Positions 11,087-23,083 of a stretch of DNA of 64,000 nt are shown here, one piece after another (position 1 is the first letter of the stretch; every line of letters starts with the position of its first letter). The DNA comes from Allocoprobacillus halotolerans (lineage in GTDB: Bacteria; Bacillota_I; Bacilli_A; Erysipelotrichales; Coprobacillaceae). The stretch covers positions 2,833,608 through 2,897,607 of the forward strand of contig NZ_CP101620.1 of assembly GCF_024399475.1 (NCBI RefSeq). Direction: 5' to 3'. The position numbers and the translations under genes are program-made. The notes beneath the pieces are model-generated. The model was not told where the DNA came from, did no database searches, and worked only from the letters and a program-made list of their open reading frames with translations.

Positions 11087-12666
11087 TTTGACTTTCGGTT
11101 TTTTGCATTCTTTTTTGAAGGGTATGTCTTGTTGTTTATTGTCATAACCCTTGTTTTCTTATCTATATCATCTTTTTTGTTTTTGTTCTCTTTTTATTGT
11201 AGCTGAAAAAGTGTCATTTTCATGACCTTTTTTATTATTTACTATATGTTCATTTTATAGTTTCAGTTGCAGCTGCCTGTATTCCTGCTTCTCTCTTATA
11301 TTTTGAAACTCCTTGATTCCCTTTTGTGCATATTTTAATATTTCCTGTATCCCTTTACTGATCTGATAGCACCAGTAATATCTCTTTCCTTTAAGCGATT
11401 TGCTTCTCTCTATCATCTTTATGACTAGTAATTTCTTGTCTACTTTCTCTGCCAACAGTGTTATATGCCCTATATGCATCATCAATATCATATTCAATAC
11501 ATTTATTGATTTCATTGTCCTTACTCTTATATTTTCAAAACCATACTGATTCTTTTTGAATCTGAATTTCTCCTCGATTCGCCACCTTGACATATATGCC
11601 CTCACTATCTTATGCACATCTCTTTTATTCCTGATCTCTCTATTCGTTAAAAGCATCATCGGTTTTTCTTCACTTAATCCATACACAATGACTAGATTTA
11701 ATATCCTTCCCTTTTGTGATGGCAGTTCCACTCTCGTATGTGATACATAGACTTCACTATCTTCCTTAGAAAAATACATGTTCATCTTAATCTTGCCTTT
11801 TCTTCTTTTGGCGATTTCTCCTACTTTCTTTGGCTTCCCTTTAAACAATAATGTTCTATTTTCTTTGAGTCTGATGATGAAATCATCTGCATTATGATTT
11901 TCATCTATGAAGTAATCATAAAATACATTGGCATCATATCCTCTGTCACATACAAATGTACATCTTTCAGGAATGAGAGATTTGACATATTTTATGCTCT
12001 TTATTGTTTCATCGTTCATTGACCTGAATCCTTCACTTTCAGTTGAATAGATATGGCTATACAAAGATATTGGATGATGTTGATCCTGTGTGAGGGCAGT
12101 TGCCTCACATACATGGTATCCAGGATAAATGTCATCCTTAAGTGAGGAAGCATCCCTGACCATACAAAGATCTTCAAATTTTCTTCCATATTTTTTGATG
12201 ATTTCACTGTTATCAAGTAAAATGATCCTGTCTTCGCTAAGATGCTTGATAACCATATCATTATAATTGGATTTCATTTGGTTCATTGCTTCATCATCAA
12301 ATTGAGCCAAATGATTGGATAATCTGTCAATTGTATAATTGAGCTTGATATTTTCATCAAGAGCTCTGGCAATATCGCTAAGTAGAACACTTTGACTTCT
12401 TGCAAGACCAAACATCATATCCATGACAAACTTGGCAGCAGGTTTATCAAGACTGTCTGATAATTTATTAGAAAAATTGACAATTTCTCTTTTCGTTTCA
12501 TATAGATCTGTGGTAAAATAACTCATGGAAAATCCCTCCTAAATTTTGTTTATTGATCTAAAATTATTATAACATTTTAGAGGCTGATTTTCCTTATAAA
12601 TAAAGCAAAACAGGCAATTTGTGAATAACTTTTTACCTGTTTTTTATTTTTTTACCGAAACTCAAA
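11087..12666 (-). mobile_element. IS4-type insertion sequence, copy A (1580 bp)
   Basis: The element is bounded by imperfect 13-bp terminal inverted repeats (TTTGACTTTCGGT and TTTGAGTTTCGGT). It is flanked by the 8-bp direct repeat AATTTACC at 11079-11086 and 12667-12674, a target duplication. Copies B (51846-53425) and C (62394-63973) have the same 1580-bp length and almost the same sequence, so transposition is recent. It sits between the thiT terminator and the DUF402 promoter and breaks no gene. Confidence 0.95.
11255..12526 (-). CDS. IS4-family DDE transposase (copy A)
   Basis: The 423-residue transposase carries DDE motifs: first Asp in ILLDNSEIIKKYG, second Asp in TFVCDRGYDANVF, and the C-terminal YREK signature Y-x2-R-x3-E-x6-K in YMSRWRIEEKFRFKK, which defines the IS4 family. 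The ATG follows GGAGGGATTTTCC. The ribosome site can be masked by an upstream inverted repeat in readthrough RNA. This copy reads NVLNMIL where copies B and C read NVLNTIL. Confidence 0.95.
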   Translation of the reverse strand: MSYFTTDLYETKREIVNFSNKLSDSLDKPAAKFVMDMMFGLARSQSVLLSDIARALDENIKLNYTIDRLSNHLAQFDDEAMNQMKSNYNDMVIKHLSEDRIILLDNSEIIKKYGRKFEDLCMVRDASSLKDDIYPGYHVCEATALTQDQHHPISLYSHIYSTESEGFRSMNDETIKSIKYVKSLIPERCTFVCDRGYDANVFYDYFIDENHNADDFIIRLKENRTLLFKGKPKKVGEIAKRRKGKIKMNMYFSKEDSEVYVSHTRVELPSQKGRILNLVIVYGLSEEKPMMLLTNREIRNKRDVHKIVRAYMSRWRIEEKFRFKKNQYGFENIRVRTMKSINVLNMILMMHIGHITLLAEKVDKKLLVIKMIERSKSLKGKRYYWCYQISKGIQEILKYAQKGIKEFQNIREKQEYRQLQLKL

Positions 12667-13556: not shown

Positions 13557-14747
13557 ATGGCAAAAATTATCGCAGTTAATGCTGGTAGTTCATCATTAAA
13601 ATTCCAATTATTTGAAATGGATGATGAATCAGTAATTACTTCTGGAGTGATTGAAAGAATTGGTTTAGAAGATTCTATTTTTACAATTAAATTCAATGGT
13701 GAAAAAGATGTGCGTACTTTACCTATTCCAACACATAAAGAAGCTGTTCATTTATTGTTAGATACATTATTAGAGAAAAATATCGTTTCTTCATTAGAAG
13801 ATATTAAAGGTGTTGGGCATAGAGTTGTTCAAGGTGGTTCTTATTTTAAAGAATCAGCAATTATTGATGAAGATGTTGTCAGCAAAATTGATGAATTAAA
13901 ATCTTTAGCACCTTTACATAACCCTGCTCATTTAACAGGTTATTATGCATTTAAAGAAGCAATCCCTAGTGCAGGAGCTGTGGCTGTCTTTGATACAGCT
14001 TTCCATCAAACACTTGAACCAAGATGTTATATTTACCCTATTCCATATAAATTCTATACAGATTATAAAGTGAGAAAATATGGAGCACATGGAACTTCTC
14101 ATTACTATGTTTCTCAAAAAGTCATTGAAAAACTTGGAAACCCTGAACATTCTAAAATTATCGTTGCTCACTTAGGAGCTGGTGGTTCTTTAACAGCTGT
14201 TAAAGATGGAAAATCTATTAATACATCTATGGGATTTACACCTCTTGCTGGAATCATGATGGGAACACGTAGTGGAGATTTGGATCCTTCTATCATTGAT
14301 TACTTGATTGAACAAGTTGGTATGGATATGAAAGATGTTATTCATATGTTAAATAAAGAATCTGGATTATTAGGTGTTTCAGGTGTATCAAGTGACTTTA
14401 GAGATGTTTTAAATGCAGCGAATGAAGGTAATGAAAGAGCAAAATTAGCAATTGATATTTTCTTTAGACGTGTTATCGCTTATATTGGTAGATATTTTAT
14501 AGCTTTAGGTGGTTGTGATGCGATTGCTTTCACTGCTGGTATTGGAGAAAACTCTGCTTATGCAAGAAAAGAAATCTTATCATTAGTCAGTGAAGCATTA
14601 GGAATTGTTGTGGATGATGATGCAAATGAAAATGGTGAAGGTGAACGTTTAATTTCTAAACCTGAATCAAAAATCAAAGTTTATGTTATTCCAACAAATG
14701 AAGAACTTGTCATCGCTAGAGATACAAAACGTTTATTAAACTTATAA
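13557..14747 (+). CDS. ackA: Acetate kinase
   Basis: AckA converts acetyl phosphate and ADP to acetate and ATP, the last step of acetogenic fermentation. The 396-residue ASKHA kinase shows VNAGSSSLKFQLF at the N-terminus, GHRVVQGG, FDTAFHQT, YGAHGTSHYYVS, the GTRSGDLDP segment and GIGENSA. The ATG follows AAGGAGGATAAGAAA, and an extended -10 (TGCTATAAT) lies at 13522-13530. It is monocistronic, followed by a shared terminator. No pta gene lies nearby. Confidence 0.97.
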   Translation: MAKIIAVNAGSSSLKFQLFEMDDESVITSGVIERIGLEDSIFTIKFNGEKDVRTLPIPTHKEAVHLLLDTLLEKNIVSSLEDIKGVGHRVVQGGSYFKESAIIDEDVVSKIDELKSLAPLHNPAHLTGYYAFKEAIPSAGAVAVFDTAFHQTLEPRCYIYPIPYKFYTDYKVRKYGAHGTSHYYVSQKVIEKLGNPEHSKIIVAHLGAGGSLTAVKDGKSINTSMGFTPLAGIMMGTRSGDLDPSIIDYLIEQVGMDMKDVIHMLNKESGLLGVSGVSSDFRDVLNAANEGNERAKLAIDIFFRRVIAYIGRYFIALGGCDAIAFTAGIGENSAYARKEILSLVSEALGIVVDDDANENGEGERLISKPESKIKVYVIPTNEELVIARDTKRLLNL

Positions 14748-14764
14748 TAAAATAAGCATAGATT

Positions 14765-14797
14765 AAAAAAAGATGCAAGACTACTTGCATCTTTTTT
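14765..14797. terminator. Bidirectional terminator between ackA and the surface protein gene
   Basis: A 10-bp stem AAGATGCAAG-ACTA-CTTGCATCTT has an A run on the left and a T run on the right. It serves both converging genes. Confidence 0.9.
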
Positions 14798-14799
14798 GT

Positions 14800-17700
14800 T
14801 TACATTTGTTTTTGTTTTCTATCTCTATACATAATGACTAATATAAGGATGAAACATCCTCCTAATACAATAAGATGATTTATGAAATCAGAAGAATCAT
14901 CTGTTTGAACAATTGTCACAGGTATTTTTTCATTTTCATACGCTAAACGATAAACTTTTCCTATTCCTTCAAGATGATCATCCAATACAATAGAAATCAC
15001 CTGAGTAGAAAGCTGATAGCCTTCAGGTGCCTTTGTTTCTTTGATATAGACAGTCTGTCCATATTCTAAATCTTCAAAAGTCACTGTTCCCTGAATATTA
15101 TTGGCTTTGACTGTCTGTAAAGCTTTTTGACATTTTGAATCACTATAAAGTGTAAATTCAAAGTCTTTATAAAGAATGTTCTTTTTTGTCTGACTATCAA
15201 TCTTATCAATCACAATGTCCGTTAAGATACGTTGATCAGTCATAGTCAACAACATATCCTTTTGTCCATTGACTGTAAATGTGACAGGTTTAGCTACTTG
15301 ATACCCTTTAGGTGTTTCTATTTCCAACACAGTATAAGTTTCACCAGCCATTAATCCTTCAACATAATGAACATTCTCATCACTTACCCACTGATTAACA
15401 ATATTCTTGGTTTTGTTGTTGATAACCTGAAGGGTTGCTCCTTTCACTAGATTTCCAAGTTCATCTTTCTTTATGATGCCTACTGCCGTATCAATCATTT
15501 CGATATGCTGATTCTTATCAGCAGTAACAATAAATTCAATGTCTTGTGCCAAGTTCTTGCCTACCGGTGCTAAATCTTCATGCAAGATATATGTCTTGCC
15601 TACGACAAGATTATTGATTTCATGACTTTCTTTTGTTGAAATCCATTCATCAATGACTTCATCTGTTGCCTTGTCAACCACCTGCATGGATGCACCTTCA
15701 ATTTCCTTGCCACCTGCATCAATCTTAGAGAAAATCACTTTCTTGTCAATCATGACGAAATTCATATCTTCATTTTCCTTGACAGTGAACTCTACTTCAT
15801 TGGCTCTTGCATAGCCATCTGGTGTCTTGATTTCACGTAAGATATAGGTTTGACCTACTCTTAATCCTTCTACGTCATGAGTATTCTCATCAGTTATCCA
15901 TTGATCGATAATGTCTTTTGTTTTGACACTAACAACCTGAAGTGTTGCTCCTTTGACATTGTTTCCAGTGTCATCTATCTTCTTCACAGCAACTCTTGTA
16001 TCTTTCATGACGATTGTTTGCTTGTTTTCAGTCATTGTGAACGGTACATCTTTCGCATAAGTATAACCTAGTGGTGTCAAATCTTCACGATAGATATAAT
16101 CCTTTCCCATCACTAATCCCTTGACAACATGAGTTCTGCCATTGCTTGTCCACTGATCAATGATTTCATTGGTTTTAGCATCCATCACTGAATATTCTCC
16201 ACCTTTGAGTTCTTGACCACCTAAATCCTGTTTAGAAAAATATGTTTCTGTCAATCTGTTTTTCACAGTTTTTTCCACTGTATATTCCTTTATTGTATTG
16301 TCTTTGATAGTAAATTCAAAGATAATCGGTTCATCCAAAAGCACATATCCATCCACTGTTGCGATTTCTTCAACCTTGTAGCTGGCTCCTTGTGTTCCTA
16401 ATGGCAAGTCTACAAGTTCAAGCTTTCCACTTTCATCTATCATATAGATGCCATCAGTCGCAATACCTATATTGACTGGATCACCTTTTTTGTAGATGCT
16501 CTTTCCAGTTGCAGGATCGACAATATCCTGATTGGCTGTGACCTTGAATGTTGCACCACCTACTGCTGTATCTTCATCTTTTTCAAATGCCTTATGAAGA
16601 ATCAAATGTCCTGTTGGCTTTTCATCAACAAATGATACTTCAATGACTGGCTGAAAATCTTCATCAAAAGTGATGTCCTTGTTGTCAGAAGAAATATTGA
16701 CTTTTATATCATCTCCAACAAGGAATCCTTCAGGTGTTTTCAATTCCTCAATGGTATATTTTCCTGCTTCTATCATGTTATCAAGAACAACATATCCTTT
16801 ATCATCTGTTGTCCATTCATCTTTATAGACAAGACCAACTTTCTGTTTGACATAGTTTCCTTGACTATCCTTTAGCTTAAATGTAGCATTTGATAAAGTT
16901 ACTTTTTGTCCATTTTCATCCATTTTTAAGACTTTTAGCCACGCCTTGAATGGTGCATTGTTGACCATGCGATATTCTATTTCCTTATCTTCATCAATAG
17001 TTATAAAAAAATCACCTGAAGGATAATAATTTTCAGGTGTCTTTGTTTCTTTGATTTGATAAATGCCATAAGGAAGATCAATGGATGTATCACGACCTGT
17101 CTTATCTGTAACTAACACATCATAAGTCTTTGCCTGATCCCAGCCGTTCTTTTGAACATCTGAATAAAGCTTAATCGTAAATTCTACGCCTGCAAGTCCT
17201 TGGACAACACCACTTGTGCCATCACTTGTCATCTTGGCGATTTCTAATTTTCCCTTAATGACCTGTTCATAAGAAATAACATTCTTTATGACAAGCTGTT
17301 GTGTTGCGTTTGAAGATGTCAAAGTCACTATCTGTGGATCATCTAATAAATAACCTGTACTGGATTTTGTTTCTTCAATGCGATAGCTTCCCATTGGCAA
17401 GTTAGACCATGTGATTTTCGCATTATCATCAGTTTTCTTTATGCCTGTATCTCCCCAGACACCATTGCCTACTGTCTTTTGAGAAATGACCTCATCTTTT
17501 TTGTAAAGGACACTTCCATCTGCTGGATTCAATATATTGTCATTGGCTTTCAATACATATTGAGCATCCTTCAAGGTTGCATCACCTTGAGCAGTGTTTC
17601 CTGTTTCCTTATCCTGTTTCAATAACTCAATCTTTCCTAAAACGGGTTCGTTATAGACTTCTATGCTGTAGGTCTTACCATTATCAGTAATGCCCTGACT

Positions 17701-19176
17701 TTGTTCAAGTGTTGCGATAACGTAATTCTGTGGTGCCTCCTTTTCACGGATTGTATAAGTTCCATAATCAAGAAGTCCAGACTTGGCAACACCTTCTGCA
17801 TTTGTCGAAATTGTCGTGATGACATTTGAACCACTTAGGATTTCAAACTTGATACCTGCCTGCTTGACAATTTGTCCCGTTTTTCTATCTTTCTTGACAA
17901 CCTGAATATAACCCTGTTTCCAGTTGTTCGTTTGCGTAAATGAAGCTGTTTGACCAGCTTTCAACTCTACAGAATGAACTGTGGAATCCAGAACAAGATA
18001 ATCGGGAACCTTGACTTCCTGTACATAGATAGTTGTTGGTTTCAAATTTTCAATGGTTACTGTACCATCTTTTCCAGTTGTGTATGTGCCTAGACTCTGG
18101 CTCATATTCCCATTATAAGAAACCTTGAACTGGACATCAGAGATGAAATGACCTTTATTGTCTTTTTTGGCAATCTTGAGATTGGCTGTTCCAATCTTGA
18201 CTTTAAAGAATGCACTTGGCAAGGCTTCATCTAATTCTCCAGCAATAGCTACTTTTTGATAATTTCCGGAATCATCTAAACAAAGTAATTGTTTTTTATT
18301 CAAGTCTAGATCATTTGTTCCAGAAACAATTCTAGTATCATCAAAAGAATCATTGGCTGTGACTTTTAAAACACTACCATTCTTATCAAATGACAATCCT
18401 GTTCCCTTGAAATCATACTGATTTAAGATATCATTATTATCTTTCAATTCAATATAATAATGACTGCCATCAAATTCATTCATTTCATAAGTCTTAGCAA
18501 GACCAGCATTAGTTGCACTGAAACTCGGTATTTTACCCCAACTTACAAGTGTTTCACTATAAGAATCATAGTATGATTTGACTTTAGATTGAGTTGTTGT
18601 ATCTTTCCACTCAAAGGAATCATAGGTAGACGTTGCCCCACTTGTTGTCACACCTCGATAACCCCCGTTAGCATATCTTTCTCCAACCATGATTTCCCAT
18701 ACAATGATCTGAGCAGCCAACCACTGGTAAGCATTTCCTTTCACCTTCTTCAATGAACCACTGTTGTTAAAGGATACATTGATTTTGGTAGGCGCTAAAC
18801 TTAATACTCTACTAATAAGGATTTCTTTTTGCGAAGCTGTTAGATACGTATTCTTCTGTGCCTCTTCAATCAAATCAATGGTATCAGTCGGTGTATACTG
18901 TGTACCATCATGAATGGATTTTCCATGTTCCAAACAATAAAAATATTGTCCATTATCTGTTAAAAGAACTGTCTTTCCCTCACTATAAGTACTTTCTTCA
19001 AGAATAGTTCCATCATTCAATTTTACTCCACCTTTAGCTAATACACCAGCAAGATAGTTATATGTATTCATCTTGTATGTAGCTCCATAAACTTCTCCAA
19101 TATTGAGTGTAAAAAGACATGATAACATGAAAAGTATAAATTTTTTCAATTTCATAAAATGCTTATGTTTATCCAT
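14800..19176 (-). CDS. Thioester- and SpaA/Cna-B-repeat surface adhesin, 1458 residues
   Basis: A signal peptide (KLKKFILFMLSCLFTLNIGEVYG) is followed by a thioester domain. Cys81 in GQYFYCLEHG and Gln156 in AAQIIVWE fit the Cys and Q-x-x-hydrophobic-W pair that forms a covalent host-binding thioester. About eleven SpaA/Cna-B-like domains follow, each starting with a Lys strand (for example VKKIDDTG) and ending in a Glu strand (ILREIKTP, IKETKAPEG), which can form stabilising isopeptide bonds. Four of them, about residues 1015-1350, are close tandem repeats of roughly 84 residues. The C-terminus has one membrane helix and RDRKQKQM but no LPXTG; VQTDDSS stands in its place. The ATG at 19176 follows AAAGGAGGAAATAAAT. 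An adhesin role is inferred. Confidence 0.88.
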   Translation of the reverse strand: MDKHKHFMKLKKFILFMLSCLFTLNIGEVYGATYKMNTYNYLAGVLAKGGVKLNDGTILEESTYSEGKTVLLTDNGQYFYCLEHGKSIHDGTQYTPTDTIDLIEEAQKNTYLTASQKEILISRVLSLAPTKINVSFNNSGSLKKVKGNAYQWLAAQIIVWEIMVGERYANGGYRGVTTSGATSTYDSFEWKDTTTQSKVKSYYDSYSETLVSWGKIPSFSATNAGLAKTYEMNEFDGSHYYIELKDNNDILNQYDFKGTGLSFDKNGSVLKVTANDSFDDTRIVSGTNDLDLNKKQLLCLDDSGNYQKVAIAGELDEALPSAFFKVKIGTANLKIAKKDNKGHFISDVQFKVSYNGNMSQSLGTYTTGKDGTVTIENLKPTTIYVQEVKVPDYLVLDSTVHSVELKAGQTASFTQTNNWKQGYIQVVKKDRKTGQIVKQAGIKFEILSGSNVITTISTNAEGVAKSGLLDYGTYTIREKEAPQNYVIATLEQSQGITDNGKTYSIEVYNEPVLGKIELLKQDKETGNTAQGDATLKDAQYVLKANDNILNPADGSVLYKKDEVISQKTVGNGVWGDTGIKKTDDNAKITWSNLPMGSYRIEETKSSTGYLLDDPQIVTLTSSNATQQLVIKNVISYEQVIKGKLEIAKMTSDGTSGVVQGLAGVEFTIKLYSDVQKNGWDQAKTYDVLVTDKTGRDTSIDLPYGIYQIKETKTPENYYPSGDFFITIDEDKEIEYRMVNNAPFKAWLKVLKMDENGQKVTLSNATFKLKDSQGNYVKQKVGLVYKDEWTTDDKGYVVLDNMIEAGKYTIEELKTPEGFLVGDDIKVNISSDNKDITFDEDFQPVIEVSFVDEKPTGHLILHKAFEKDEDTAVGGATFKVTANQDIVDPATGKSIYKKGDPVNIGIATDGIYMIDESGKLELVDLPLGTQGASYKVEEIATVDGYVLLDEPIIFEFTIKDNTIKEYTVEKTVKNRLTETYFSKQDLGGQELKGGEYSVMDAKTNEIIDQWTSNGRTHVVKGLVMGKDYIYREDLTPLGYTYAKDVPFTMTENKQTIVMKDTRVAVKKIDDTGNNVKGATLQVVSVKTKDIIDQWITDENTHDVEGLRVGQTYILREIKTPDGYARANEVEFTVKENEDMNFVMIDKKVIFSKIDAGGKEIEGASMQVVDKATDEVIDEWISTKESHEINNLVVGKTYILHEDLAPVGKNLAQDIEFIVTADKNQHIEMIDTAVGIIKKDELGNLVKGATLQVINNKTKNIVNQWVSDENVHYVEGLMAGETYTVLEIETPKGYQVAKPVTFTVNGQKDMLLTMTDQRILTDIVIDKIDSQTKKNILYKDFEFTLYSDSKCQKALQTVKANNIQGTVTFEDLEYGQTVYIKETKAPEGYQLSTQVISIVLDDHLEGIGKVYRLAYENEKIPVTIVQTDDSSDFINHLIVLGGCFILILVIMYRDRKQKQM

Positions 19177-19178
19177 AT

Positions 19179-19223
19179 TTATTTCCTCCTTTGTTCGTCT
19201 AAACATAGCTCAGTTATCTCCAC
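19179..19223 (-). CDS. Possible 14-codon leader ORF before the surface protein
   Basis: A GTG preceded by the near-perfect site AAAGGAGGTGAT opens MEITELCLDEQRRK. It stops two bases before the ATG of the surface protein, inside the latter's own ribosome site. Such an arrangement could couple translation. The sequence gives no other sign that it is translated, and it may be only a strong ribosome site by chance. Confidence 0.25.
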   Translation of the reverse strand: MEITELCLDEQRRK

Positions 19224-19247
19224 ATCACCTCCTTTGATAAAACCAAC

Positions 19248-19271
19248 AAAAAAAGACAGGTCAATCCTGTC
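19248..19271 (-). terminator. Hairpin terminator or attenuator in the leader of the surface protein gene
   Basis: On the minus strand GACAGG-ATTGA-CCTGTC followed by seven T lies about 70 nt before the surface protein start. azlD already has its own terminator at 19327-19350, so this second one may attenuate the surface protein gene. Confidence 0.6.
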
Positions 19272-19326
19272 ATGAAATACAAATTCCTTTTCAATCATTA
19301 AAAAAAACAATATAATTCAATGTCAT

Positions 19327-19350
19327 AAAAAAATCCCATCTAAAATGGGA
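19327..19350 (-). terminator. Terminator of azlCD
   Basis: On the minus strand TCCCAT-TTTAG-ATGGGA is followed by seven T; the azlD stop codon lies in the loop. Confidence 0.85.
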
Positions 19351-19650
19351 TAATGATTTGTGCAATCAAACTACATATAACGGTCACGCAGGCTACAAAC
19401 ACCAAACCTTTTTGACGATAAGCAAAATAAATACCAGCTAATCCTCCAATCAATGCACTGCTGATATGTCCCGTTGCATATAAAATGCCAGGGAATGTTA
19501 AGGCTGATAAAACAGCATATGGAACATAATATAATATCGAACGGATAAAACGCGAGTGAATTTCTTTTTAAAAAATGTGAGTGGCAACATCCTTGGCAGA
19601 TAAGTCATCACTGCCATCACCACAACAGTTAACAATAAATAACTTGACAT
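19340..19650 (-). CDS. azlD: Branched-chain amino acid exporter small subunit AzlD (one frameshift)
   Basis: AzlD is the small membrane partner of AzlC in branched-chain amino acid export. The first frame gives MSSYLLLTVVVMAVMTYLPRMLPLTFF. After one added base in the five-T run (plus strand 19565-19569) the protein continues SRFIRSILYYVPYAVLSAL and ends LIAQIIIPF, about 103 residues with three helices. Its ATG overlaps the azlC stop (TAATG). Confidence 0.85.
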
Positions 19651-20345
19651 TATGTATTCTCCTCAATCGGATAACGTAATGCGCCATATAAAGCCGCTAG
19701 TAATGTTGCGATAATTAATTGAAATCCACTCGATAATCCTTGAAATAAAGGCACTTCATACATTATAGTTGAAAGCAAAGCTCCTATCACTACAACTTCT
19801 AAAATCGCACGTGATTTGGCAGAAGCTGGAATAATAATCGCCAAAAACATACCATATAAAGCTAATCCCATCGCATTTTGTAAAACTGGTGGTAAAATAT
19901 TTGTAAGTGTTTCACCCACAAATGTTCCACTTGTCCATCCGATAATAGGAATCAAGATAAATCCTGCCATAAAACGAAATGACAATGTTCCTTGTTCCAA
20001 AGATGCCAAACTAAATGTTTCATCTGTAATACCAAAAGAAATCACCATTCTTTCAAGTGTTGACATCTTTTGATCTATCTTTTGACTTAAAGATAAAGAC
20101 ATTAAAAAATAACGTGCATTAATCATTAATAAAGTCAATGCAGTTTCATAATAAGAAGCCTGAGTCAGCATCAAAGATACGCCTGCAAATTGCCCCGATG
20201 ATGTTAAATTCGTAATTGAAATCAAGGTTGCCAAACCAAATGGTAAACCACTTGATGCTACAAAAACACCAAAAGAAAAAGATACTGGAAAATATCCTAA
20301 AGCAATCGGAAGTGATCTTTTGCACCCTTTTAAAAACTCTTCCAT
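19650..20345 (-). CDS. azlC: Branched-chain amino acid exporter large subunit AzlC
   Basis: This 231-residue membrane protein of the AzlC family forms with AzlD an exporter for branched-chain amino acids. Family segments are ALGYFPVSFSFGVFVASSGL near the N-terminus and INARYFLMSLSLSQKI in the middle. The ATG at 20345 (MEEFLKGCKRS) was chosen because GGAGGGGATTGT precedes it; the longer frame upstream lacks a site. It is coupled to azlD by TAATG. Confidence 0.92.
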   Translation of the reverse strand: MEEFLKGCKRSLPIALGYFPVSFSFGVFVASSGLPFGLATLISITNLTSSGQFAGVSLMLTQASYYETALTLLMINARYFLMSLSLSQKIDQKMSTLERMVISFGITDETFSLASLEQGTLSFRFMAGFILIPIIGWTSGTFVGETLTNILPPVLQNAMGLALYGMFLAIIIPASAKSRAILEVVVIGALLSTIMYEVPLFQGLSSGFQLIIATLLAALYGALRYPIEENT

Positions 20346-20387
20346 ACAATCCCCTCCATATATCCCTATATGATACATGAATCAAAA

Positions 20388-20909
20388 TCACTTATCAAAT
20401 AAATTTTTCTCAATAAATTCCATAATTTCTTCTCTTGGTGTTAAAACCTGATAAAATGCTTTTCTCAAATCAAGTCTTTGAATATCAACTGAACGAATAT
20501 CACTCAATTGAATACGACAATATGTTATATGTGTATCTGTTTTTATTTTAATATCTTTTTCAAAAAGTGGATTCACAGGTGTTGAATCTTTTTTAATTGA
20601 AGTACATGGAACAACAAGCATTTTATATCCCATATCTTTTAAAACATAACACCAATGTCCATCCATCAATTCTTTAGGAAAACCACGTCCAATATTAAAA
20701 TAAGCTAACTCATGAATATGTGGTCTTTTATGTACATGATAGAATGTTTGATTACAATCACCATCTTTAACCAAATGACAATAAAAATATTCAAGCTGAC
20801 TGGTTTGATGCAACAAAGCATAACTGTATTTCTCTACATCATAAACACCGGATTCTTCTAATTTTTTTAATGATTTATTCATTTCTAGTAAATTATTACG
20901 TATACTCAT
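20388..20909 (-). CDS. PemK/MazF-like protein, no antitoxin beside it
   Basis: A 173-residue protein whose middle part resembles the MazF/PemK barrel: ELAYFNIGRGFPKELMDGHW, then KMLVVPCTSIKKDS and ITYCRIQLSDIRSVDIQRLD. In classic MazF these strands carry an mRNA endoribonuclease site, but the usual GSEQ-x-x-x-R-P motif is altered to PKELMDGHW, so activity is uncertain. No small antitoxin ORF is coupled to it. It lies 42 bp upstream of azlC on the same strand and is divergent from glmS. Confidence 0.5.
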   Translation of the reverse strand: MSIRNNLLEMNKSLKKLEESGVYDVEKYSYALLHQTSQLEYFYCHLVKDGDCNQTFYHVHKRPHIHELAYFNIGRGFPKELMDGHWCYVLKDMGYKMLVVPCTSIKKDSTPVNPLFEKDIKIKTDTHITYCRIQLSDIRSVDIQRLDLRKAFYQVLTPREEIMEFIEKNLFDK

Positions 20910-21109: not shown

Positions 21110-21255
21110 GCGCCTGGACTTTTTGAAGTTGACGAGGACCAGATTTATCGAAAGATTCGGCGGATGATCTGGAGGTATGATGCTACCTGAACAATGAGCA
21201 AAAATAATGAGTGATCATTAAACAAATATCATTAGGCATCACTTCATCATATAAT
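21110..21255 (+). ncRNA. glmS self-cleaving ribozyme
   Basis: The core is unmistakable: AGCGCCTGGACTT around the cleavage site, AAGTTGACGAGGA, TTTATCGAAAGATTCGGCGG, followed by P3/P4-like pairing near 21170-21250. Glucosamine-6-phosphate triggers self-cleavage, which destabilises the glmS mRNA. A TATAAT box at 21074-21079 can provide the promoter. The 3' limit is approximate. Confidence 0.95.
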
Positions 21256-21282
21256 TTATTGAATATATGGAGGAAGATTTTT

Positions 21283-23083
21283 ATGTGTGGAATTACAGCT
21301 TATTGTGGAAAAGGAGAAGCTTTGCCTTTTTTAATGCAAGGCTTGTCTAAATTAGAGTATCGTGGTTATGATAGTGCTGGTGTGACAACACTAGAAAATA
21401 ATCAGTTGATAACTATTAAATGTAAAGGTAGATTAGAAAACTTAGAAAACAAATTAAAAGAACATCAATTAAATGGTCATGTTGGAATTGGACATACAAG
21501 ATGGGCAACGCATGGAATCCCATCTAATCTTAATTCTCATCCTCATACCAATCAAGATGAAACAATTGCTTTAGTGCATAATGGTATTATTGAAAATTAT
21601 CGTGAATTAAAAGATGAATTAATAAAAAAGGGTATCAGTTTCAATCTGATACTGATAGCGAAGTGGTTGTCATGCTTTTAGATAGTCTTTATGAAGGTAA
21701 TCTTTTAGAAGCTACTCAAAAAGTTTTAGGTTTGATTAAAGGAAGTTATGCTTTATGCATTCTTTCAACTCTTGAACCAGATCATATTATTGTAGCCAAA
21801 AAAGATAGTCCTTTAATTATTGGTGAAACAAAAGATGCTTACGTTGCTGCGAGTGATATTCCAGCTTTATTAGAATACACGAAAGATGTTTATTTTTTAA
21901 ATGATTATGAAATGGCTGTTTTATCTGCTGATCATATTGAATTTTACAATCAAGATGGACAAAGAATTGAAAAAGAAACAACAACAATTCCTTATGATTT
22001 AGAAGCAGCCAAAAAAGATGGCTATGATACTTTTATGTTGAAAGAAATTCATGAACAGCCTCATGTGATTGCTGAAACCTTAAGAGGTCGTATTCATCAA
22101 CAAGGAATCGTTTTAAATGAATTAAAAGATATTGATTTTTCAAAATTTGATAAAGTTTATTTTGTTGCTTGTGGAACTGCTTATCATGCATCTTTATGTG
22201 GGGCTCATGTTTTAAAGAAAGTTGTTCATCTTCCTGTTTTTAGTGAAGTGGCAAGTGAATTCCGTTATAATGATCCTTTTATTGATGAAAAAACTTTAGC
22301 TATCTTTGTTTCTCAATCAGGTGAAACAGCTGATACATTAGCTGCTTTACGTCTTGCGAAAGAGAAAAAGCCACAACAATTGCAATTGCCAATGTTTTAG
22401 GAAGTACGATTTCTAGAGATGCTGATTATGTTTTATATACTTGTGCGGGTCCAGAAATTGCTGTGGCTTCAACGAAAGCTTATACAACGCAACTTGTCCT
22501 TCTTATTTTATTAGCTTATTATATGGCTCAAAGTTTAAATCAGAATGTTCATGATGATGTGATTCAACAATTACAACTTATCCCTCAATATGTAGAAAAC
22601 ATTTTGAAAGACGAACCACTCTTTGAACAATATGCTCATATGTTAGAAGATCAACATGATGCTTATTTCATTGGTAGAAATTTAGATTATGCCAGTGTTT
22701 TAGAAGGTGCTTTAAAACTCAAAGAAGTTTCTTATGTACATGCTGATGCATATGTTGCTGGAGAATTAAAACATGGCCCAATTGCTTTGATTGAAAATAA
22801 TTCGGTTGTTATTGCAGTCGCAACACAACCTCATATAGCTCAAAAAACCATCAGCAATATTCAAGAAACAATTGCCAGAGGAGCACGTGTCATTTTATTA
22901 ACGACTCATCAAGAAGAAGTCAAAAATGTTCAAAACACTTATTATTTACCAGATATAGAGCCAACACTTCAAGCAATCCTTGTAGCCATTCCATTACAAC
23001 TTATTGCTTACTACACAGCTTGTCTAAAAGAATGCGATGTGGATAAACCACGTAATTTAGCAAAATCTGTGACGGTTGAATAA
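21283..23083 (+). CDS. glmS: Glutamine-fructose-6-phosphate aminotransferase (two frameshifts)
   Basis: GlmS makes glucosamine-6-phosphate, the entry step to cell wall amino sugars. Cys1 (MCGITAYCGKG) starts the glutaminase domain, with HTRWATHG and NGIIENYRELK. Two sugar isomerase domains follow, with VACGTAYHA, SQSGETADT and the C-terminal PRNLAKSVTVE. The gene is read in three frames. One added base at six A (21624-21629) gives KKGYQFQSDTDSEVV, and one at five A (22365-22369) gives KEKKATTIAIANVLG, about 600 residues in all. An essential gene with two breaks points to sequencing error. GGAGGAAGATTTTT precedes the ATG. Confidence 0.96.

Follow-up and report, generated by a model that had tools for sequence, protein, structure and literature searches.

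A probable thioester-isopeptide adhesin with a putative variant class B-type sorting signal in Allocoprobacillus halotolerans

We have analyzed a stretch of 64,000 nucleotides of the Allocoprobacillus halotolerans chromosome (the window; C1:2833608-2897607 of a single-contig genome of 2,931,125 bases) and describe here a large gene of this window which codes for a protein of 1458 amino acids. The protein is probably a wall-anchored thioester-isopeptide (TIE) adhesin in which an N-terminal thioester domain (TED) would carry a bond between Cys81 and Gln307, followed by a stalk of CnaB domains and a tail addressed to a class B sortase. TIE adhesins as such are known; this one comes from a gut genus which has been little studied, and its sorting signal looks like a class B variant. 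An earlier reading of this DNA, made from the letters alone and called here the sequence-only reading, had placed an open reading frame (ORF) at 14800-19176 and had interpreted its product as a large thioester adhesin built on eleven SpaA-like domains. The frame is indeed intact on the minus strand, and the homology of the TED together with eleven SpaA domains supports the assignment. Our comparison covers the five genomes of the own genus, Massilimicrobiota (G000 to G004, with G000 being the own genome), and further genomes of the family.

The N-terminal domain has the motifs of a class II TED. The motif [YFL]C-Phi-zeta is present as Y80-C81-L82-E83 and the motif PhiQ-zeta-Phi-Phi as Y306-Q307-K308-V309-A310, and the helix motif TQxxPhiW is found as AAQIIVW with Gln and Trp present and Ala in place of Thr. 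We aligned 19 diverse TEDs of the own genome and the family, and in this alignment the columns of Cys81, Trp160, Pro217, Ser218, Phe219, Asp246, and Gln307 are invariant. Gln156, the glutamine of the helix motif, is kept in 17 of the 19 sequences and is replaced by Arg in the remaining two (L156 and L158). Most of the sequences had been picked by a pattern requiring [YFL]C and, further on, Q..W, a choice that is favourable to Cys81 and Gln156; this pattern had missed both sequences with Arg at position 156, which were added afterwards, and Gln307 played no role in the picking. From 24 TED matches, 12 outside the genus were fetched and seven were left unfetched. The Pfam TED profile matches 15 of the 19 domains, that of the window included, at E <=0.01, the best of them at 3e-14. 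Among viral contigs 69 stretches fitted a pattern and none encoded a relative.

A profile of the 19 relatives matched the solved TED of SaTIE (6fx6) with an E value of 3.4e-18 in two stretches. In this match the chain positions 47 and 218, corresponding to Cys296 and Gln467 which are bonded in the crystal, stand opposite Cys81 and Gln307. With a profile of 12 sequences, omitting seven of the more distant ones including two paralogues of the own genome near ParA/ParB genes, 6fx6 was still the best match (5.5e-5). Because Cys81 and Gln307 are both invariant and are aligned with the crystallographic pair of SaTIE, they are the predicted thioester residues. The sequence-only reading had paired Cys81 with Gln156, and only the cysteine of that pair is upheld, since position 156 can be Arg and it is Gln307 that stands opposite the proven Gln467. 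Walden et al. (PMC4450167) and Miller et al. (PMC6194298) locate the glutamine of the bond behind the helices, in a PhiQ motif of its own, and report the Gln and the Trp of the helix motif as non-essential for the thioester bond. As to the beta-sandwich insertion expected ahead of the Gln strand in a class II TED, Cys and Gln are 226 residues apart here, vs 171, 195, and 204 residues in three solved class II domains (PMC6194298). The change from Gln156 to Gln307 matters for anyone testing the thioester, as the conservation of the TQ motif points to the wrong glutamine.

Downstream of the TED the SpaA profile found 11 stretches (E 4.1e-119), the number of SpaA-like domains counted from the letters alone. 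Over the eleven aligned domains the residues of the isopeptide triad are kept, with Lys in 11/11, Glu in 11/11, and Asn or Asp in 10/11 at the triad column, the exception being domain 6 with Asn973 four columns off. The domains following the TED match BaTIE (6fwv, 3.8e-15), and the tenth domain, D10, matches among solved chains the CnaB2 domain of FbaB (4mli, 1.3e-8; 2x5p, 4.2e-8) over a part that covers the Lys and the Glu and leaves out the strand of the Asp. Domains 7 to 10 end in M-x-D and form the row of four tandem domains of about 84 residues noticed earlier, which measure about 84-90 amino acids between residues 974 and 1319 with boundaries set by eye. The number of copies in this block is four in G000 and G001, three in G002 and G004, and two in G003, where the adhesin gene holds one in-frame stop. 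The copy-number variation suggested by the sequence-only reading thus exists between species; ongoing slippage is not proven by it, because the four copies are diverged at the DNA level.

The C-terminal end consists, as had been described, of the letters VQTDDSS in place of an LPXTG motif, followed by a membrane helix and a basic end. At the same place the orthologues have VVKTGDAT (G001), IVKTGDSS (G002 and G004), and VVQTDDNT (G003), compared with IVQTDDSS in G000. Relatives with an intact LPXTG, which would have marked the tail as mutated, were not seen, all four orthologues carrying VKTGD or VQTDD. Because the orthologues have these letters there, VQTDDSS looks like a variant of the anchoring signal and not like a broken LPXTG. 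A second protein of the own genome, different in domain content, ends in VQTNDSS, and its four orthologues end in VQTDDSS, VQTSDQS, VQTDDQS, and VQTDDTS. All ten of these tails of the adhesin and the second protein keep the Asp at P2' and have Gly, Asp, Asn, or Ser at P1'. Features of a class B substrate are present in the window tail as well, namely Thr at P1, a hydrophobic stretch, and a basic end. The NCBIfam profile for such substrates (TIGR03063, srtB_target, cut-off 18.15) scores above its cut-off for five out of ten tails that were run against it, including those of the G001 orthologue (20.2) and of the second protein (26.1). The pattern GTNCARACNRRNGAY matched five times in the own genome vs four times in a reversed control, so the pattern alone proves nothing; two of the five matches are C-terminal tails (that of the window and that of L044).

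The second protein with the VQTNDSS tail (L044:1315-3542) resembles toroid/cyclase proteins below threshold. Its gene is followed by one for a DUF4430 protein (3.8e-18) and then by one for a protein similar to the S component of ECF transporters (sub-threshold, in the G002 copy). The gene set is suggestive of an operon for transcobalamin-like vitamin capture.

The tails which we examined keep Thr at P1 and Asp at P2', and P1' varies, most of all in Massilimicrobiota. The constancy of these residues is judged best on the TED proteins, which were selected by their TED and not by their tail, with the motif being read by eye. Among the 21 TED proteins inspected, the G004 orthologue included and a pLS20 row dropped as a wrong ORF lacking a TED, 17 had readable tails (the four without being those of G023, G038, and G005 and a broken own copy in L043). 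In each of the 17, P1 is Thr and P2' is Asp, and P1' is Gly (14), Asp (2), or Ala (1). In the genus we collected 48 tails, consisting of 47 profile matches down to E 0.056 and one at 0.24, with weaker ones excluded and three (L115, L101, L114) read by eye. Asp is at P2' in 48/48 of them, and 19/48 are without Gly at P1' (7/13, 2/10, 2/11, 7/9, and 1/5 in G000 to G004). For the family 52 tails were read from 12 of the 20 genomes having a single sortase, among the matches listed and leaving out G013:C99, which holds a stop, and two listed matches of G014. These have Thr at P1 (52/52) and Asp at P2' (52/52), mostly Val at P3 (36, with Pro in 5), and Gly (47), Ser (4), or Asp (1) at P1'. Since the tail profile (A3) itself contains the Asp at P2', and the motif-reading scripts favour it too, the values of 48/48 and 52/52 are biased and the constancy of this residue is better judged on the TED proteins. 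Pilin-like tails with LPDTGG and LPETGG beside a class C sortase have Gly at P2' and stand outside these counts. Fisher's test on the loss of Gly at P1' (19/48 in the genus vs 5/52 in the family among the matches listed) gave p 8e-4, a value that is descriptive only, because the tails of different genomes include orthologues.

A search for sortases and for partner tails, as the sequence-only reading had advised, yielded besides the VQTNDSS protein two sortases in the own genome, one of class B (TIGR03064, 160.4 bits with a cut-off of 153.75) and one of class C (NF033745, 284.7 bits). The class B profile has matches in 42 of the 43 family genomes (39 above cut-off), in 36/36 of those of good quality, and in none of 14 control genomes. 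With PF04203 exactly one sortase was found in 20 of the 43 family genomes, always at the class B site; among these 20, G024 and G029 have class B scores below cut-off, and completeness is no more than 69% for G007 and 72% for G014. Two genomes bearing the adhesin, G002 and G003, belong to those in which the single sortase found is of class B. Judged from these sequences, a class B sortase most likely anchors the adhesin to the wall. The tail had been assigned earlier either to an unusual sortase or to a membrane protein; the sortase is the better supported option but it does not appear unusual, being an ordinary class B enzyme and the only sortase found in 20/43 genomes. For the wider proposal that the class B sortase of the family is its housekeeping sortase and reads V-[K/Q]-T-x-D-x-[S/T], with Asp fixed at P2', Gly at P1' free, and the signal having moved far in Massilimicrobiota, we see an even chance.

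From the domain homology, the residue conservation, the orthologue tails, and the sortase inventory, all obtained by computation, we infer bond formation, cleavage, wall linkage, and the kind of target as follows. After secretion the class II-type TED would form the internal thioester between Cys81 and Gln307, which could then react with an amine, probably of a lysine, on the target and so bind it covalently. The eleven CnaB domains with their Lys-Asn or Lys-Asp isopeptide residues and catalytic Glu would make up a long stiff stalk, in which different species have different numbers of the SpyCatcher-like tandem domains. V-Q-T-D-D-S-S together with the hydrophobic helix and the basic end would be the sorting signal for the class B sortase of the family, and this enzyme would cleave after Thr1425 and link the adhesin to peptidoglycan. 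The enzyme seems to depend on Thr at P1 and on Asp at P2' and would tolerate several residues at P1'.

Several results weigh against a wall-anchored adhesin of this kind. On the side of the TED, the AlphaFold2 model from five orthologues was poor (mean pLDDT 39.8), a TED profile made from the genus only retrieved no TED from the PDB, the single stretches of the 12-sequence profile on 6fx6 are weak (10.2 and 13.0 bits), and a profile comparison (A5) with TIEpLS20 gave a probability of 2.7%. On the side of the anchoring, half of the ten tails tested stay below the srtB_target cut-off, the genes for the adhesin and the class B sortase lie far apart, and G004 (87% complete), a genome with the adhesin, yielded no sortase. 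In a study of Clostridium difficile (PMC4155245) the SrtB of this organism failed to cleave an NVQTG peptide in vitro. This paper alone turned up for VQTGD with sortase in a limited literature search, which gave nothing on VKTGD with sortase, on Massilimicrobiota sortases, or on a sorting signal for sortase B in Erysipelotrichaceae. In favour of the proposed signal, it has been reported for other class B enzymes that SrtB of Bacillus anthracis needs the Asp at P2' of its substrate for full activity (PMC11987632), and that a streptococcal SrtB (Streptococcus parasanguinis) cuts LPKT/S, a motif which varies most in its last residue (PMC4974636).

Alternatively the tail could have drifted and be no longer a sortase substrate, with the protein held in the membrane by its C-terminal helix, which we regard as rather improbable. 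The Gly at P1' is missing, none of the NCBIfam anchor models (TIGR01167 and TIGR03063 included) matches the tail of the adhesin, and TIEpLS20, likewise a TED adhesin, functions without the host sortases tested (PMC8092201). Yet the form VQT(D/N/S)D recurs in the second protein with its different domain content and in the orthologues of this protein, and in G003, where a class B sortase is the only one found, seven of nine tails are without Gly at P1' yet have kept Thr and the Asp at P2', which disfavours a plain loss of selection even though the tail profile favours the Asp. Slightly less probable again is a degenerate TED, in which case the protein would be an adhesin that binds non-covalently, or else a structural fibre of the surface. 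The window protein is below the Pfam TED cut-off of 22 (17.9 bits for the whole protein and 21.0 for the domain alone) and a usable structure model is missing, but both residues of the predicted bond are invariant in 19/19 diverse relatives and aligned with the crystallographic thioester pair. It seems to us very improbable that the adhesin is a pilus subunit processed by the class C sortase at the pilus locus, although the own genome does have such a sortase beside the pilin-like LPDTGG and LPETGG proteins and the whole protein scores 99.8 bits, above the cut-off of 95, with NF033902 (SpaH/EbpB LPXTG-anchored major pilin), a score which also speaks against a TIE adhesin. The match is made up of several partial stretches on the SpaA domains, and because the LPXTG anchor of that family is missing we have not filed the protein under it; NF033396 scores 38, far below its cut-off of 600. 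Anchoring by class C ranks low because G002 and G003 bear the adhesin yet show one sortase, that of class B.

A wall-anchored TIE adhesin with a class B signal would resemble several known systems and differ from each of them. The class II TIE adhesins BaTIE (6fwv), SaTIE-TED (6fx6), and EfmTIE86 have the same order of an N-terminal TED with YC and PhiQ motifs and CnaB domains behind it; here the stalk has eleven domains compared with three in BaTIE and five in EfmTIE86, and the tail is of class B type whereas BaTIE has a putative LPATG motif (PMC6194298). TIEpLS20 of the Bacillus subtilis plasmid pLS20, likewise a TED adhesin, has CnaB-like domains and lacks an LPXTG; it is described as being without a sorting signal and serving conjugation (PMC8092201), whereas the gene of the window is chromosomal, lies next to an ackA-like gene, and has a sorting-type tail. 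With the CnaB2 domain of FbaB, the parent of SpyTag/SpyCatcher, domain D10 shares a match with an E value of about 1e-8 and the aligned Lys and Glu. The Asp of D10 is placed in the corresponding strand by the eleven-domain alignment, as the strand of the FbaB Asp lies outside the alignment to the solved chains. Unlike in FbaB, there are four diverged copies in a row within a stalk, and the isopeptide bonds are predicted. C. difficile also has a class B sortase as its only sortase and most of its listed tails continue with TGD, but its motif (S/P)PxTG has Pro at P3 (PMC4155245), while P3 is mostly Val here and P1' is often not Gly.

Tails of this type can escape searches for LPXTG, and the surface proteins of these gut bacteria may therefore be under-counted. 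Should a V-x-T-x-D signal served by a housekeeping class B sortase of its own be confirmed, the surface proteome of the family would become predictable, and it would offer a test of how general the requirement of B. anthracis SrtB for Asp at P2' is (PMC11987632).

The positions of the features are collected in Table 1.

Table 1. Features of the adhesin gene and its surroundings (positions in the window)
Feature	Position	Strand	Basis
Adhesin gene, 1458 aa	14800..19176	-	start ATG 19176; alternative longer frame from 19206
Shine-Dalgarno AGGAGG	19185..19190	-	eight bases before ATG 19176, read directly
Signal peptide (putative), residues about 1-31	19084..19176	-	basic start and hydrophobic core in sequence
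Thioester domain (TED), class II type, residues about 32-331	18184..19083	-	profile and alignment
Cys81, predicted thioester cysteine, motif YCLE	18934..18936	-	19/19 invariant; opposite SaTIE Cys296
Gln156 of TQxxPhiW helix motif, unlikely bond partner	18709..18711	-	Arg in 2/19 TEDs; literature
Gln307, predicted thioester glutamine, motif YQKVA	18256..18258	-	19/19 invariant; opposite SaTIE Gln467
Eleven SpaA/CnaB domains (stalk)	14926..18183	-	profile, structure matches, domain alignment
Tandem block of four CnaB2-like domains (D7-D10), predicted isopeptide partner Asp	15220..16257	-	D10 vs FbaB CnaB2; D7-D9 align with D10
Putative sorting motif VQTDDSS, residues 1423-1429	14890..14910	-	tail reading, orthologue comparison
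Hydrophobic stretch and basic end of putative sorting signal	14803..14889	-	sequence
Terminator-like hairpin, 14 pairs, between ackA-like gene and adhesin	14766..14797		hairpin reading
Leader hairpin with T run	19255..19271	-	core CAGG...CCTG kept in 5/5 species, loop changing

The adhesin gene was found in all five genomes of the genus. It is flanked by an ackA-like gene on one side and an azlC/azlD-like gene on the other, and the same neighbours are present in the remaining four genomes. Because 5/5 genomes carry the gene with these neighbours, it looks like a core gene of the genus. Upstream of the gene the leader hairpin is followed in four of five species by AAAGGAGGTGAT, which we assume to be the complement of the 3' end of the 16S RNA, and then by a second Shine-Dalgarno sequence. 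The hairpin may act as an attenuator, or else as an additional terminator for the genes upstream; Rfam matched nothing within 14000-20500 at E 0.1.

Further observations concern the window and the rest of the genome. A transposase ORF of 423 amino acids at 11255-12526 has near-identical counterparts, compared by eye, in L038, L039, and L040 (two copies), and this element has spread within the own genome. At 21211-23083 a gene which we presume to be glmS-like is split into three ORFs and is a single frame in the relatives L077-L079 over the stretch fetched; the breaks are due either to true frameshifts or to indels of the assembly. Broken frames are apparent in the pilin locus of L039 as well. 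Finally, other TED/SpaA genes are present in the own genome. Two of them (L041:6748-10554 and L042:5363-8836, coding for 1268 and 1157 amino acids) have the tails VKTGDNS and VKTGDDS and adjoin ParA- and ParB-like genes, an arrangement known from mobile elements; by likeness to TIEpLS20 their products may help conjugation. At L042:12619-14539, near mobile-element genes, there is a gene in two separate ORFs which we take for a look-alike of a tet(M)-type ribosomal protection gene. Another TED/SpaA gene (L043:7631-8871) is broken up, and one of its frames shares its last letters with the transposase ORF L038:7196-8404, which would fit the presence of an insertion element there.

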